NCBI GenBank assembly: GCA_026398935.1
Contig: JAPLRW010000270.1
Location: 1 to 38,033 of the forward strand
DNA from: Methylococcales bacterium
GTDB lineage: Bacteria > Pseudomonadota > Gammaproteobacteria > Methylococcales > Methylomonadaceae
Direction of reading: 5' to 3'
Length of the DNA stretch: 38,033 bases
Shown here: positions 13,046-19,085 of the stretch, one piece after another
How the letters are laid out: each line of letters opens with the position of its first letter
Position numbering within the stretch: the first letter of the stretch is position 1
The notes under the pieces: model-generated
Told to the model about the DNA's origin: nothing
Databases searched by the model: none
What the model saw: the letters and a program-made list of their open reading frames with translations, nothing else
Made by a program: the position numbers and the translations under genes

Positions 13046-14059
13046 CTATTGCGCAAGCGGTAATTCGGCACGGCTTAACAAGGCCGCATGATCTGCCTGT
13101 GAAGGGAGGCCTTGGCGAGCACCCATTTTAGTACAACACAATGCCCCAGCTGCGCTGGCATAACGTAGCATCTCCAACCAAGGCAGCTCGTCAGCAATCG
13201 CCGCCGCTAATGCGCCGTGAAAAGCATCCCCTGCCCCCGTGGTATCCAGCGCGGTTACAGTGAAAGCAGGCAACGTGCCGCGCTCTATTCCGCGCTGCCA
13301 AATCAAGCCCTTTTCACCTAAGGTAATGATGACGTTGGGGGCAAGCTTTGCCAAACGCTTTAATGCCGTATCGACATCGCCTGCATAGTGTTGCGCAAAT
13401 TTTTCGGAACACGCTAAATAATCGACACAGGTCATTAACGCTAATGTTCCTTCATGCACGGAGCCCGCATCCAATACCGTTGGAATTGAATCGCGGCGCG
13501 CTCGCTCTACTAGCGATAAAGAGATGTACGGTTCGTGGCCATCAAACAGCAGCACTTTCGGGTGCATGTCTGAAAAATCAAGCGTACCAGCCGCTAACGC
13601 ACGGGTTTCGCCCTTATAATTAATTAACGCGCGTTTGCCATCGGGCTTAACGATGATCGTCGAGAGTGGCGTAGGGGATGTGCCGCGTAGAATCAGCTGT
13701 GTATTAACGCCCGCCTGAATAAATTCGTGCAGGTGTTTTTCACCATAAATATCCTTGCCTAAAAAACCGGCAAACGCTGCTCTGTAACCCAATTTAGCGA
13801 CACACATAGCCGCATTGGCCGCAGGGCCACCACCGCATGCACTAAAATCATCCGCAAGCATTTTTTCATCGGCATCGGGATGTTGCGCAACAGCAAAAAT
13901 TAAATCATAAGCGGCATGGCCAACACAAAGGACATCAACGGCAGTGCTTGGTGGTTCTATGGACGAGAGGGTTGTTTTCAATGAGATTCCTAGCATAACG
14001 TTACGGTAATAAGCATTAAAATAACCTGCGACCTGATGAAGCGCACCGATTGATGTCAT
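13046..14059 (-). CDS. PfkB/ribokinase-family sugar kinase
   Basis: This cytoplasmic ATP-dependent kinase phosphorylates a sugar or nucleoside. The first signature is GGGPAANAAMCVAKLG (about residues 75-90). The second is DTTGAGDAFHGALAAAI near residue 280, which includes the catalytic Asp and anion hole. The family domain begins around VDVLCVGHAAYDL. The start is uncertain: TTG at 14062 and ATG at 14059 follow AAAGG, but ATG at 13996 would give a length closer to the family norm and leave the Pho-box-like repeats outside the gene. The substrate cannot be assigned; the nearest relatives I can think of are ribokinase and fructokinase-like enzymes. It is divergent from the small membrane-protein unit. 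Confidence 0.88.
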   Translation of the reverse strand: MTSIGALHQVAGYFNAYYRNVMLGISLKTTLSSIEPPSTAVDVLCVGHAAYDLIFAVAQHPDADEKMLADDFSACGGGPAANAAMCVAKLGYRAAFAGFLGKDIYGEKHLHEFIQAGVNTQLILRGTSPTPLSTIIVKPDGKRALINYKGETRALAAGTLDFSDMHPKVLLFDGHEPYISLSLVERARRDSIPTVLDAGSVHEGTLALMTCVDYLACSEKFAQHYAGDVDTALKRLAKLAPNVIITLGEKGLIWQRGIERGTLPAFTVTALDTTGAGDAFHGALAAAIADELPWLEMLRYASAAGALCCTKMGARQGLPSQADHAALLSRAELPLAQ

Positions 14060-14097
14060 CAAGCCTTTACCGTAATGTCATCAAAATGTCATGTTTA
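14054..14097 (+). promoter_or_regulatory. Pho-box-like array of 11-base direct repeats
   Basis: TGTCAT occurs at 14054-14059, 14076-14081 and 14087-14092. These positions are spaced 22 and 11 bases apart, so they fall on one 11-base lattice; the fourth unit, at 14065, is a weak CTTTAC. PhoB boxes are tandem 11-base units of CTGTCAT-type sequence, so the match is in both motif and phase. A -10-like GATAAA lies at about 14106. The start codon of the first small ORF is 50 bases downstream. PhoB control is inferred from the pattern only. Confidence 0.6.
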
Positions 14098-14141
14098 TTC
14101 GGCATGATAAAGCCTTATTTAATCAGTGACCAGGTATAAAA

Positions 14142-14276
14142 ATGAATACAAATGTATTGAAATATGTGGGTATAGATAAAAATTTAGGGGCTATTTTATT
14201 GATGGGCGTGGCGTTGAGCTTATTGGGTAGTTGGGGGGTAGAAGTATTGCTAGCGTCTCTGTTTAGCGTGAGTTAA
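14142..14276 (+). CDS. Small single-pass membrane protein (44 aa)
   Basis: A 44-codon ORF starts with ATG seven bases after AGGT and ends at TAA. The product has a short polar N-terminus with two Lys, then one hydrophobic segment LGAILLMGVALSLLGSWGV (about residues 15-33) continuing into a second apolar stretch. It would be an inner-membrane peptide. I recognise no family. Support comes from the ribosome-binding site, the tight spacing to a second small membrane ORF (4 bases), the upstream Pho-box-like array and the downstream terminator, which together define a compact transcription unit. Confidence 0.6.
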   Translation: MNTNVLKYVGIDKNLGAILLMGVALSLLGSWGVEVLLASLFSVS

Positions 14277-14280
14277 CCGA

Positions 14281-14424
14281 ATGAACTTTACAAAAGATGT
14301 CGTCAATGGCTGCATTATTATTGTTGGTCTTTGGGCGTTTATTTCTGGCGAGTATATTTCCGCGTCAACGCTGTTTGCCAGTGCAACATTGATCAATACG
14401 TGGGGAAAGTATTCCCCTGATTAG
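14281..14424 (+). CDS. Small membrane protein (47 aa)
   Basis: A 47-codon ORF begins 4 bases after the stop of the preceding small gene and ends inside the hairpin of the following terminator. The hydrophobic segment GCIIIVGLWAFISGEYI spans about residues 10-26, followed by a Ser/Ala/Thr-rich stretch that could be a second weak helix, and a polar end WGKYSPD. No family is recognised. Close coupling suggests a two-peptide unit, perhaps a hetero-oligomer or regulator of a membrane protein (inference). Confidence 0.6.
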   Translation: MNFTKDVVNGCIIIVGLWAFISGEYISASTLFASATLINTWGKYSPD

Positions 14425-14441
14425 ATCAGGGGCGTTTTTCT
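14414..14441 (+). terminator. Intrinsic terminator of the small membrane-protein unit
   Basis: CCCCTGAT (14414-14421) pairs perfectly with ATCAGGGG (14425-14432) around a 3-base loop and is followed by CGTTTTTCT. This is a good plus-strand rho-independent terminator. It overlaps the stop codon of the 47-aa ORF, supporting that the short unit is transcribed. Confidence 0.8.
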
Positions 14442-14449
14442 ATCTTTCC

Positions 14450-14483: not shown

Positions 14484-16694
14484 TCAGGTAAAGAACCTTA
14501 CCTTTCCGGTTTCAACATCATACATTCCCCCCACAATAGCAATTTCGGCGCTGGCCGCCATTGTCGCTAAAAGCGGACTTTGCTGCCGAATATGCTCAAC
14601 GGTGAGCTGCACATTTCTATCAGCCACTTTCTGAATTAATACCACGCTATCGCCACTCATGTCCAAGGACTCCTCTCTGCTGATGGCCTCTACTGCCGGT
14701 TTAATTTTAGCCAGCAAGCCAGTTAAATGCTCCAGTTGCACGTTAGCACACGCCCCTTTGATTGCACCACAATGCGAATGCCCCAAGACCACGATTAACT
14801 TCGACCCGGCTATTTTACACGCGTATTCCATACTCCCTAAAATATCATCATTAATGATATTGCCCGCAATCCGGGTGCTAAAGACATCGCCTAAGCCTTG
14901 GTCAAAAATTAATTCTACCGAGGTGCGCGAATCCATACAGCTAAGAATAATGGCAATCGGGAATTGTCCTTGCCGGGTATCATTAACTTGCTCCAGAAAG
15001 TTTCGATTGGCCTCTAGGTTGTTCACAAATCGCGCATTCCCTTCTTGCAGAAGTGCGAGTACATCTGCGGGAGTTAAGGCTTGTTGGCTGTCATAAGTTT
15101 GTGCGCGTGCGTACTCAAGTGCTGGCAACTCACCGTAACCGCGTAAATTTTCAACGGTTAATTTTATTTTCTTTAGCGCCGCTTCCAGTTTGAAATTTTG
15201 CACAATCTCGAAAACATCGTAATCAATGTACTTAGAGCGGCTCGCATCAATCACGACTTCGCTGTCATTGGGAATGCGTTTAAGCATTTGCAGAATATTG
15301 GCTTTATTCAAAAAAGAAACGTGTTCAGAAAATTTAATAATAATTTTATTGCCTTGTCGCGCTTCTTTAAAATAAAAGGCATTTTTATAGTTACCCAGTA
15401 CTATTGAAAACAATGCTGTACCTAATCCAATAGCGATGCCCGTCAGCATATCAGTCAAGACCAACCCCAAGACCGTTGCGCAGAAGGGAATGAAGTTATT
15501 AATTCCGGCGTGGTACATGGATTTAAATACGCTGGGTCTCGCCAACTTATAGCCTGCCACCATTAACACACTGGCTAAACTGGCTAAGGGAATTTTATTC
15601 AGCAAGGAGGGTATTAACAGTACTGCAGAAAGAAACAATACGCCGTGAATAAAGCTGGCTACTTTCGTTTTAGCGCCAGAAGATATATTAATGGAGCTGC
15701 GGATAATAACTTGTGTTAAGGGTAATCCACCCAACAGACCTGAACAGATATTACCCACACCTTGCGCCATTAACTCCTGATTAGCCGACGTTACCCGTTT
15801 ATACGGGTCAAGTTTATCAACGGCATCAATAGACAAGAGTGTTTCCAGGCTGGCGACTAGCGCCAGTGTTAACGCGGTTAGATAAATAGCCGGATTAGTA
15901 AGCTGTGAAAAATCAGGAAAGGTCATGGATTTAAGCACATCAGCGCTATTATCGAGTAAGGGTAAATTAACCAGATGTTCATTTTGCAAGGCAAGGGCGG
16001 GATAAACGCTTTGCAATAGATAATTAACGCCGATACCGGTAATAATCGCCAGTAAGACGCCCTGAAACAAATGTAAAAGCGGAAGGTTTTTTATAAATGG
16101 CTGCTCCCAAAGTATCAAAATAAGTAGCGATACGGATGAAATTAATAATGCTCCGGGGGTAATGAAAGCTAGCATATTAGCCAGTGCTGAAAACGAGGAC
16201 GAATGATCCGCTTGCACAAAGGCCATATCACCTTCATAGTCACGGTCATAGCCTAATGCATGTGGAATCTGTTTGAGAAAAATAATTAGCCCGATGCCGG
16301 ATAACATGCCATTAGTGACCGAGGACGGAAAGTAATACGCGATAACGCCCGCTTTTGCCAAGCCCAAGCTAATCTGGATGCAACCTGCTAATACTACCGC
16401 TAATAAAAAAGCAGCAAAGCCTAATTGTTGAATATCTGTAAAGGCAATCACCGCCAAACCTGCCGCCGCACCACTAATACCCAATGCCGAGCTGCCTAAG
16501 GGTGCCACCACTAAGCCACCAATAATGCCGGTAATAAGCCCGGAAAACAACGGCGCACCAGAGGCCAATGCGATGCCTAAGGATAGCGGGATAGATATTA
16601 AAAATACCGCAATGCCGGCGGGCAGGTCGTGTTTTAGATGCATGAATGTGCTGATAGTTAACGAGTGAAACTTGAGTGAGCGGTTAGTGATCAT
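14484..16694 (-). CDS. SulP anion transporter fused to a beta-carbonic anhydrase
   Basis: The 736-residue protein has three parts: a polytopic SulP/SLC26 transport domain (about 18-420) with DLPAGIAVFLISIPLSLGIA and the GGLPLTQVIIRSS region; a shortened STAS-like domain (about 430-515); and a C-terminal beta-carbonic anhydrase (about 545-736). The anhydrase keeps its zinc ligands in CMDSR (near 583) and GHSHCGA (near 638). SulP members carry sulfate or bicarbonate; fusion to carbonic anhydrase points to bicarbonate/CO2 handling at the inner membrane. It follows another SulP gene by 21 bases, the two forming an operon. AAGGA lies 10 bases before the ATG; ATG at 16643 is an alternative. Confidence 0.93.
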   Translation of the reverse strand: MITNRSLKFHSLTISTFMHLKHDLPAGIAVFLISIPLSLGIALASGAPLFSGLITGIIGGLVVAPLGSSALGISGAAAGLAVIAFTDIQQLGFAAFLLAVVLAGCIQISLGLAKAGVIAYYFPSSVTNGMLSGIGLIIFLKQIPHALGYDRDYEGDMAFVQADHSSSFSALANMLAFITPGALLISSVSLLILILWEQPFIKNLPLLHLFQGVLLAIITGIGVNYLLQSVYPALALQNEHLVNLPLLDNSADVLKSMTFPDFSQLTNPAIYLTALTLALVASLETLLSIDAVDKLDPYKRVTSANQELMAQGVGNICSGLLGGLPLTQVIIRSSINISSGAKTKVASFIHGVLFLSAVLLIPSLLNKIPLASLASVLMVAGYKLARPSVFKSMYHAGINNFIPFCATVLGLVLTDMLTGIAIGLGTALFSIVLGNYKNAFYFKEARQGNKIIIKFSEHVSFLNKANILQMLKRIPNDSEVVIDASRSKYIDYDVFEIVQNFKLEAALKKIKLTVENLRGYGELPALEYARAQTYDSQQALTPADVLALLQEGNARFVNNLEANRNFLEQVNDTRQGQFPIAIILSCMDSRTSVELIFDQGLGDVFSTRIAGNIINDDILGSMEYACKIAGSKLIVVLGHSHCGAIKGACANVQLEHLTGLLAKIKPAVEAISREESLDMSGDSVVLIQKVADRNVQLTVEHIRQQSPLLATMAASAEIAIVGGMYDVETGKVRFFT

Positions 16695-16715
16695 CGATGT
16701 GAAATCCTTTAAGCC

Positions 16716-18263
16716 TTAAATAACGTATTTAAAATAAACATCAATCAACTCTACCTTGATATTGTCATCCGGCGCAGTGGCGACAAAATCTTCCAGCGTT
16801 TCTAAAATATCATGATCAATAAATTGCGCCTTTCTGGCATCAATGGTAACAGTACTGTTTGCTTTAATGCTTAAAATCAACTTCCTGAGTAGGGCTTTAT
16901 TTAAAAAAGAGACATCTTTGTGCATCACGATTTGATAATGCGTAGCGTCTTGAGTCATGGTCATTGCCGCATTGAAATTGGATTTAATCACAAAAAACAA
17001 CCCTATAATTACGCCAATCAACATGCCTTTTAATAAATCCGTCATTAATATGGCAATGATGGTTATCAAGAAAGGTAAAAATTGACTCATACCTTTATGA
17101 TAAAAATCCATAAATAAGCTGGGTTTTGCCAACTTATACCCAGTGTGTAATAAAATCGCCGCTAAACACGCTAACGGCATGGTATTCAGGTAATGTGAAA
17201 AAAACAGCACACTAACCAGTAAACACAAACCATGAATAAAGCAGGACATACTGGTTTTACCGCCCGCATTAATATTAGCGGAGCTTCTGACAATCACCGC
17301 GGTAAGTGGCAAGCCGCCTAGCATGCCACTGATAATGTTTCCCACGCCTTGCGCTTTCAGCTCACGATTAGTCGGTGCAATACGCCTTAACGGATCAAGC
17401 TTATCCACGGCTTCAAGGCTTAATAGGGTTTCCAGACTGGCAATAATCGCAATGGTAACAGCGACACTGTAAATCGCTGGGTTGGTCAAATAACTAAAAT
17501 CTGGAAAGATGAAGCTATTAAAAAAATCAGCAGGGTGTTCAAAAATAGGCAAACTCACTAAATGCTGCGGACTCACTGCCCAAGCAGGTGCAAAGGTTGT
17601 TGCTAAGCCGTTAAAACCAATGCCCCAGCTAACCGCGATTAACGGGCCTGGAATCAGTTTAAAAAACCGTTGCTGTTTGAACCACGGCAGTTCCCATAAA
17701 AACAATATCACCAACGCCACACTGCTGATGAGCACAGCCCCTAGTGAAACCCCATTAAAAGCAGCGAATAATTCATGAAAACTGGAGCTCGCGGTTTCTG
17801 TCATATAGCTTTCATCACCTTCATAACTGGCATCAAAGCCTGTAGCGTGAGGAATTTGTTTAATGATCAAGATTAAACCGATGGCCGCCAACATGCCTTT
17901 AATGACCGCTGAAGGAAAAAATGCACCGATAATACCCGCACGAAGAAACCCCAGTGACAATTGTAAAAAACCCGCTAACACACAGGCAACCAAGAAACCT
18001 TGAAAACTGCCTAGTTGTGCAATGGCATTAAATACAATAGCGGTTAAACCCGCTGCGGGGCCTGATACACTGAGTTGCGAGCCGCTGAGCCACGCAACAA
18101 TCAAACCACCCACCATTCCTGAGATCAAACCGGAAGAGAGCGGCGCACCAGAAGCCAAGGCAACGCCTAAACACAGCGGCAATGCGACCAAAAAAACCAC
18201 CACACCTGCGGGGAAGTCATCTTTAACATGGCGTAAATAATAATAGGCTTGCTTATGAATCAT
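16716..18263 (-). CDS. SulP family anion (probably bicarbonate) transporter
   Basis: The frame opens at 18326, but ATG at 18263 has AAGGA 8 bases upstream and matches the N-terminus of the paired transporter, giving 515 aa. The SulP transport domain begins DDFPAGVVVFLVALPLCLG and contains GGLPLTAVIVRSSANINAG (about 330-350). A short STAS domain (about 430-510) ends the protein. It is clearly paralogous to the downstream fused protein but lacks the carbonic anhydrase. The operon is divergent from a two-component system, with about 147 bases between start codons. Bicarbonate is inferred from the neighbour; sulfate cannot be excluded. Confidence 0.9.
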   Translation of the reverse strand: MIHKQAYYYLRHVKDDFPAGVVVFLVALPLCLGVALASGAPLSSGLISGMVGGLIVAWLSGSQLSVSGPAAGLTAIVFNAIAQLGSFQGFLVACVLAGFLQLSLGFLRAGIIGAFFPSAVIKGMLAAIGLILIIKQIPHATGFDASYEGDESYMTETASSSFHELFAAFNGVSLGAVLISSVALVILFLWELPWFKQQRFFKLIPGPLIAVSWGIGFNGLATTFAPAWAVSPQHLVSLPIFEHPADFFNSFIFPDFSYLTNPAIYSVAVTIAIIASLETLLSLEAVDKLDPLRRIAPTNRELKAQGVGNIISGMLGGLPLTAVIVRSSANINAGGKTSMSCFIHGLCLLVSVLFFSHYLNTMPLACLAAILLHTGYKLAKPSLFMDFYHKGMSQFLPFLITIIAILMTDLLKGMLIGVIIGLFFVIKSNFNAAMTMTQDATHYQIVMHKDVSFLNKALLRKLILSIKANSTVTIDARKAQFIDHDILETLEDFVATAPDDNIKVELIDVYFKYVI

Positions 18264-18369
18264 GGTATTAGTCCTTGATTGAGCGGCTGTATGGGTGTTG
18301 TTCCGTGTCAGTAACGTTACAAACAAACTGTATTAAGTAGCATTAAACGCTTATCATCTTAGCAAACGA

Positions 18370-18410: not shown

Positions 18411-19085
18411 ATGCGGCTTTTATTAATTGAGGACGATGCCATTTTAGCCGATGGGTTAATGCACACCCTCAGCAACAGTGGCTATTCGATAACCTCCGCA
18501 ACCTCTGGATGTTACGCAGAACAACTGCTTCTGGCGCAAGATTTTGATTTAATTATTTTGGATTTAGGTCTGCCGGATATGGATGGTTTGGCGTTATTAC
18601 GCCGTATCCGGCATCGAAAATCACCGTTGCCAATTTTGATTTTAACGGCACGGGATGGTGTAAATGATCGTATTGAAGGCATTGAACAGGGCGCAGATGA
18701 TTACTTGACTAAACCTTTTGAATTGAGAGAGCTAGAAGCTAGGCTGCACGCCTTAGTACGCCGTTGCTATGGCGGCTTTAGCAATACTATTAGCAATGGA
18801 CGTCTGGTTTTAGATACCCAGAATCATCAGGTGCTCAGTGATGGCAACGTATTGGTATTGACGGCGCGTGAATATGGTCTGTTAGAAATATTATTATTGC
18901 AAGCGGGTAAAGTAGTGGCTAAAGAACGTATTGCGCAACGATTATCATTGGATGGCGAGGCATTAACGGATAACGCGATTGACATCTATATTTATCGACT
19001 GCGGAAGCGCATTGAACCCTATGGCGCAGTAATCCGCACCGTGCGTGGACTCGGCTATTTATTGGAAAAAACAACCGATGATTAA
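18411..19085 (+). CDS. OmpR-family response regulator (TctD/QseB-like)
   Basis: The 224-residue protein has an N-terminal receiver domain (1-115) with the acidic pocket EDD (7-9), phospho-acceptor Asp51 in LDLGLPDMDG, the Thr of LILTARD, and the conserved Lys in LTKPF. A C-terminal winged helix (about 125-220) ends RTVRGLGYLLEK. The sequence falls in the QseB/PmrA/TctD group. It overlaps the kinase gene by 8 bases, so the two are translationally coupled. Divergence from the SulP/SulP-carbonic anhydrase operon suggests that this operon is a target (inference). Confidence 0.92.
   Translation: MRLLLIEDDAILADGLMHTLSNSGYSITSATSGCYAEQLLLAQDFDLIILDLGLPDMDGLALLRRIRHRKSPLPILILTARDGVNDRIEGIEQGADDYLTKPFELRELEARLHALVRRCYGGFSNTISNGRLVLDTQNHQVLSDGNVLVLTAREYGLLEILLLQAGKVVAKERIAQRLSLDGEALTDNAIDIYIYRLRKRIEPYGAVIRTVRGLGYLLEKTTDD

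Follow-up and report, generated by a model that had tools for sequence, protein, structure and literature searches.

In a ChIP study of Escherichia coli, PhoB sites were assigned to phoA (TGTCATAAAGTTGTCACG) and pstS (TGTCATAAAACTGTCATA) (PMC10294691). YoaI of the same species, a small membrane protein of 34 aa, is PhoB-regulated and activates EnvZ (PMC10294691, PMC11853020). Lipid remodelling by methanotrophs at limiting phosphate has been described only recently, and that work reports PlcP to be ubiquitous in proteobacterial methanotrophs and OlsB/A to be present in some of them (PMC9239053).

The locus presented here is quite probably a PhoB-controlled pair of small membrane proteins. The window, i.e. 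the whole stretch of 38,033 nucleotides that was analysed, comes from a methane-oxidising bacterium and encodes two predicted membrane microproteins (44 and 47 aa) that carry no annotation. A box array, a −10-like element, two ORFs and a terminator follow one another on the + strand between positions 14054 and 14439:

14054..14092, + strand: Pho box array on an 11-base lattice, with TGTCAT at 14054, degenerate CTTTAC at 14065, TGTCAT at 14076 and TGTCAT at 14087
14103..14108, + strand: predicted −10 element CATGAT, 10 bases past the last TGTCAT unit
14142..14276, + strand: ORF1, 44 aa, predicted small membrane protein, one long helix
14281..14424, + strand: ORF2, 47 aa, predicted small membrane protein, helical hairpin around an SGE turn
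14414..14439, + strand: intrinsic terminator, stem CCCCTGAT-TAG-ATCAGGGG at 14414-14432, then CGTTTTT

The sequence-only reading of this DNA had reported three TGTCAT motifs locked to an 11-base lattice, a 44-codon and a 47-codon ORF with four bases between them, a hydrophobic segment in each and an intrinsic terminator overlapping the last stop, and these observations proved correct throughout. The TGTCAT units are separated by steps of 22 (14054 to 14076) and 11 bases (14076 to 14087), the degenerate CTTTAC filling the lattice slot at 14065, and the exact pair TGTCAT-N5-TGTCAT occurs once in the window. The terminator stem comprises 8 pairs followed by a T tail and encloses the ORF2 stop codon (14422-14424); the fold of 14405-14445 has a z of −3.8. 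By sequence alone the frequency of terminator-like sites was unremarkable (1 found vs 1.3 expected), so that chance is ruled out for the unit because of its conservation and not by the terminator-like site alone.

On one side of the unit lies a PfkB-type kinase gene in divergent orientation, on the other, in convergent orientation, a gene for a SulP transporter-carbonic anhydrase fusion (assigned by eye); neither has an evident phosphate role. Two adjoining SulP-type transporter genes occupy 14484-18326, the carbonic anhydrase domain being fused to the first. The OmpR-family response regulator encoded after them (18411-19085) is not PhoB (154 bits vs a cut-off of 296). In a genome of the same genus that lacks ORF1 (G002, locus L029), an ORF2 paralogue adjoins a kinase gene homologous to the PfkB-type one of the window, at its 3' end and not at the 5' end as in the window, which hints at a rearrangement there.

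A single-sequence search with ORF1 returned one relative only, in the sister species. A two-row profile built from these two sequences found 20 further loci, all but one of them ORFs of 40-49 residues, whose products end in a motif like SLLVSWGVELLMKELFRLG. Since the relatives beyond the sister species were reached only with the two-row profile, a genus-specific reading of ORF1 drawn from the single-sequence search would be wrong. With a 21-row profile matches were obtained in 51 of the 237 genomes of the family, or about 46 once weak matches had been set aside; those in G129, G090, G100, G005 and G217, which were weak, lay in long frames or contained stops, were discarded. A sample of 369 genomes from the whole class yielded no match that was accepted, the weak ones being partial, mostly inside unrelated frames and in one case with stops. 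The distribution within the family is patchy. Methylobacter tundripaludum SV96 and Candidatus Methylobacter oryzae are among the carriers; of the four genomes that represent the genus of the window, two lack ORF1 (G002, ~73 % complete, and G003, ~100 % complete).

The ORF1 family can be defined as proteins of 40-49 aa with W..E followed by L-x-K/R-E-L-F-R-L, encoded behind a Pho box ~67 bases before the ATG. The window ORF1 falls within this definition, keeping W31, E34, L40 and F41 and missing the K-E pair. Start and stop positions are stable across the family, and most close pairs have a pN/pS of 0.03-0.33; less clear are two close pairs at ~0.7, with few changes, and one at 0.46. The AlphaFold2 model consists of one helix (residues 4-43, pLDDT 80), in which the conserved W31 and E34 form the C-terminal limit of the hydrophobic core and an amphipathic tail follows. 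No model in Pfam or NCBIfam accounts for the family. These patterns of substitution mark ORF1 as a real gene, conserved and under purifying selection.

Every one of the 25 genomes that represented its family in the first sample contained relatives of ORF2, with up to six copies per genome, nearly all as free-standing ORFs of 44-58 residues; the other families of the order yielded no credible relatives in that sample. The window ORF2 has the length, the hairpin and the pattern D-x3-G-x5-G-x3-F-x-S-G-E of this family, and its AlphaFold2 model is a two-helix hairpin (residues 3-21 and 25-44) around the SGE turn, with a pLDDT of 88. Weak Pfam matches to DUF6949 (5 members, E ~1e-3) and YrhK were not accepted, nor were the NCBIfam matches to QoxC and UgtL. 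Close pairs have a pN/pS of 0.11-0.28, which marks ORF2, too, as a real gene belonging to a conserved multicopy family under purifying selection. Between the window and the sister species the values are moderate, 0.50 for each of the two ORFs. As far as searched, neither family occurs outside a single family of methanotrophs, that of Methylobacter and its relatives. A search of solved structures gave nothing significant.

Conservation in relatives and selection on the frames had been named beforehand as checks on the sequence-only reading. Both frames belong to conserved families, the mostly low pN/pS values point to purifying selection on each, and the repeats are kept, contrary to the decay of frames and repeats specified as the opposing outcome. 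The same data bear on the proposal that the ORFs are untranslated and that the locus produces a PhoB-driven small regulatory RNA or leader. Such an RNA would suit a promoter-to-terminator unit of ~300 bases, and an Rfam scan gave no match, as expected of an undescribed RNA; the frames, however, are kept across genera with mostly synonymous changes and stable start and stop positions, and both belong to families that occur elsewhere as separate genes. This proposal is extremely improbable, and we infer from the conserved frames that both ORFs are translated.

The promoter was assessed with a box score, defined as the best match to TGTCAT-N5-TGTCAT (maximum 12) within 130 bases 5' of the gene. 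The ORF1 family reached a mean of 10.1, with 30 of 45 members at 10 or more, whereas shuffled upstream sequences averaged 7.5 and reached at least 10 in 1.5 % of cases. Most members share the layout TGTCAT-N5-TTTAAC/TGTCAT-N10-CAnnAT, then an ATG ~34 bases on, and the likeness to TATAAT is highest at offset 10 after the box. The second unit TTTAAC resembles the E. coli phoE box. In the window the ATG of ORF1 lies 33 bases past the end of the −10 element (32-36 bases in most members), and the sister species has an identical CATGAT at the corresponding place. Tandem 11-base TGTCAT-like units thus precede the ORF1-ORF2 unit, standing in place of a −35 with N10 to CATGAT in both species, and the arrangement is conserved in about a dozen genera. 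Judged by its sequence, the array at 14054-14092 is the promoter element that the ORF1 family conserves, a Pho box.

The exact motif TGTCAT-N5-TGTCA was found at only 8 positions (7 loci) in the 3.6 Mb window genome, and apart from the unit these include sites 5' of the genes for a PhoD-type phosphatase, a phosphate-selective porin (PF07396, Porin_O_P) and PhoA (PF00245), as classified with Pfam. A one-mismatch box (TGTAATATTCCTGTCATATAGATTTAAT) precedes pstS. The genome encodes PhoB (328.7 bits vs a curated cut-off of 296.2), its gene being followed by one for a PhoR-like kinase on the same contig as the PstS gene, and it applies the box to known phosphate genes. An exact box was also seen 5' of genes for a cold-shock/DUF1294-like protein (L081) and a GNAT-nitrilase-like fusion protein (L085), which are possibly further regulon members or possibly have the box by chance. 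In the sister genome the exact box occurs at four loci, namely the ORF1-ORF2 operon, phoA, the porin gene and a fourth site, palindromic, that has no clear phosphate target; the exact sites common to the two genomes are therefore the ORF1-ORF2 operon and two classical phosphate genes.

When one mismatch was allowed, 59 sites were counted in the window genome against 50 for the reversed control, which is no clear enrichment; the box is unspecific at this level, so weak boxes carry no evidential weight. The abundance of one-mismatch sites is what could be said for a chance resemblance of the TGTCAT repeats to a Pho box, with some other regulator in control. Chance is highly improbable as an explanation, since the motif is conserved at fixed spacing throughout the family and its exact form is shared with phoA, phoD and the porin gene, and nearly so with pstS. 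The phosphate control that had been suggested as a possibility is supported by the sequence, the box being kept across the ORF1 family and marking phosphate genes in the genome, and the unit is very likely under PhoB control.

The same does not apply to ORF2 in general. The upstream regions of its paralogues (n = 59) had a mean box score of 7.4 and none reached 10, and ORF2 was rejected as a general phosphate gene. These regions (L021-L079) share an inverted repeat, AACAAT-N18-ATTGTNNAC (AACAAT-N18-ATTGT), that overlaps the −35, and their −10 is often TATAGT-like. Exact AACAAT-N18-ATTGT sites in eight genomes (L236-L246) lay just 5' of an ORF2 paralogue in 10 of 11 cases. One of the sites reads as follows:

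G000:C221:7894-7926: example of an AACAAT-N18-ATTGT site

The repeat looks like the operator of a dedicated regulator. No exact site accompanies the window's ORF2 copy, in its genome (G000) or in the sister genome (G001), and the Pho box and ORF1 occupy the operator's place 5' of it. Because the other copies have this putative private operator, the recruitment of ORF2 is notable: in the operon an ancestral Pho gene is combined with a gene of a differently regulated family. The pairing under a Pho box was found in two species only, the window's and its sister, where the ORFs are ~50 bases apart and no obvious terminator follows; elsewhere ORF1 is solo, without ORF2. The dedicated two-microprotein unit proposed at the outset is present here, and as a pair it is local to these two species.

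The neighbourhoods of ORF1 point to phosphate and lipid metabolism. At ~12 loci it lies directly 3' of an alkaline phosphatase gene (phoA) and at ~14 directly 3' of a gene for a protein of 430-600 residues with no Pfam or NCBIfam match, which ends like LYLASIMPNTGKAMIEAYRIE and is probably another unnamed phosphate-starvation protein. The latter loci are:

L111, L114, L116-L118, L122, L125, L152, L154, L165, L166, L172, L180, L181: gene for the 430-600-residue protein 5' of ORF1

At L221 (G123) ORF1 adjoins a glycosyltransferase gene and one for a PlcP-like phosphoesterase; phoB-phoR lies at a distance of 2-4 kb, and phoB itself is preceded by a perfect box. OlsB- and OlsA-like acyltransferases were encountered near ORF1 in several extended regions, as best matches below the equivalog cut-offs. 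Over the whole family, OlsB was present in 31 of the 46 genomes with ORF1 and in 59 of the 191 without it (Fisher p 8e-6, in counts that ignore shared ancestry). In 9 genomes, which represent 5 genera, no more than 6 kb separated it from ORF1, vs 0.1 expected. OlsF was a neighbour at L225; in G011, which is without OlsB, it lies ~4 kb from ORF1. OlsB was not found in the window genome or the sister genome; the window genome has OlsF, together with PlcP-like and glycosyltransferase genes, on another contig than the unit. The best-supported candidate process is the remodelling of phospholipid to ornithine/glyco-lipid by PlcP and OlsB/OlsA or OlsF, in which we tentatively propose that the unit acts.

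Alternatively, ORF1 and ORF2 could tune signalling, by feedback or cross-talk, through binding a sensor kinase (PhoR, EnvZ) or the Pst transporter. The precedents are YoaI, the PhoB-controlled activator of EnvZ (PMC11853020), and the small PhoR-binding proteins with a DUF1127 domain (PMC12501420); the phoBR genes close to ORF1 at L221 and its single-helix form would fit as well. On the other hand, phoBR adjacency was seen in 1 of 10 extended regions, no member of either family matches DUF1127 in Pfam or NCBIfam, and lipid genes are far commoner as neighbours of ORF1, which leaves signalling a possible but rather doubtful role. The size and hydrophobicity of the predicted proteins are also like those of type I toxin-like or holin-like peptides, and a membrane toxin or stress peptide might have come under a starvation-induced promoter by happenstance. 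A Pho promoter kept in about a dozen genera, the recurrent association with phosphate genes, the conserved polar residues W31 and E34 and the lack of a toxin family match make this very improbable.

For a PhoB-controlled pair of membrane proteins, the following course of events can be proposed. When phosphate is scarce, PhoR would phosphorylate PhoB, and PhoB dimers, bound to the tandem TGTCAT units, would bring RNA polymerase to the −10 element that starts at 14103; occupancy and recruitment are proposed because the site architecture matches known Pho promoters. Both microproteins would then be made at phosphate starvation and inserted in the inner membrane, a membrane location being very probable from their hydrophobicity. 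The ancestral role of ORF1 in the Methylobacter-type family of methanotrophs would be that of a phosphate-starvation gene, and ORF2 would be a hairpin protein that the operon gained from a multicopy family controlled by a separate operator. Once inserted, both would probably modulate a membrane-embedded partner in the phosphate-starvation envelope response, the choice of partner being speculative. A bolder version, which we consider unlikely in this specific form, is that ORF1 is a dedicated phosphate-starvation switch that binds and steers the enzymes exchanging phospholipid for ornithine/glyco-lipid (or shields the methane-oxidising membranes meanwhile), and that ORF2 links a second family of membrane proteins, under separate regulation, to that signal.

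The analysis brings to light two conserved families without a Pfam or NCBIfam match, one of which (ORF1) would be a promoter-tagged phosphate-starvation member in a large group of methane oxidisers. A small protein encoded beside ornithine-lipid and phospholipase genes may offer a handle on the control of the methanotroph lipid switch. No description of the proteins was found in the literature searched, which excluded preprints and most subscription journals. A small membrane protein in a stress regulon is a known kind of gene product; neither the two families nor their membership of the regulon nor the two-gene unit appears to have been described before.

With respect to known systems, the ORF1-family promoters have the same box spacing as E. 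coli phoA and share with phoA/phoE-type promoters a like unit, the 11-base repeat and the 10 bases from the last unit to the −10, but the methanotroph boxes often consist of three or four units. The lipid remodelling of methanotrophs at phosphate limitation is the pathway to which neighbours of ORF1 belong, and it operates under the condition in which the unit is predicted to be expressed, whereas the parts of it named in the accessible portion of the source are conventional enzymes and include no such microprotein (PMC9239053). The PhoR-binding DUF1127 proteins, a further functional analogue to which homology is likewise not claimed, resemble ORF1 and ORF2 in having fewer than 50 aa and in being tied to phosphate control (PMC12501420). 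YoaI may be regarded as the closest functional analogue of the unit, with no claim of homology: like ORF1 it is a membrane protein of very small size whose gene follows a Pho box (TGTCATCAAACTGCCATT) and is not a classical phosphate gene, but ORF1, in contrast to YoaI, was detected in methanotrophs only, has phoA or lipid genes beside it and is here joined to a second microprotein.
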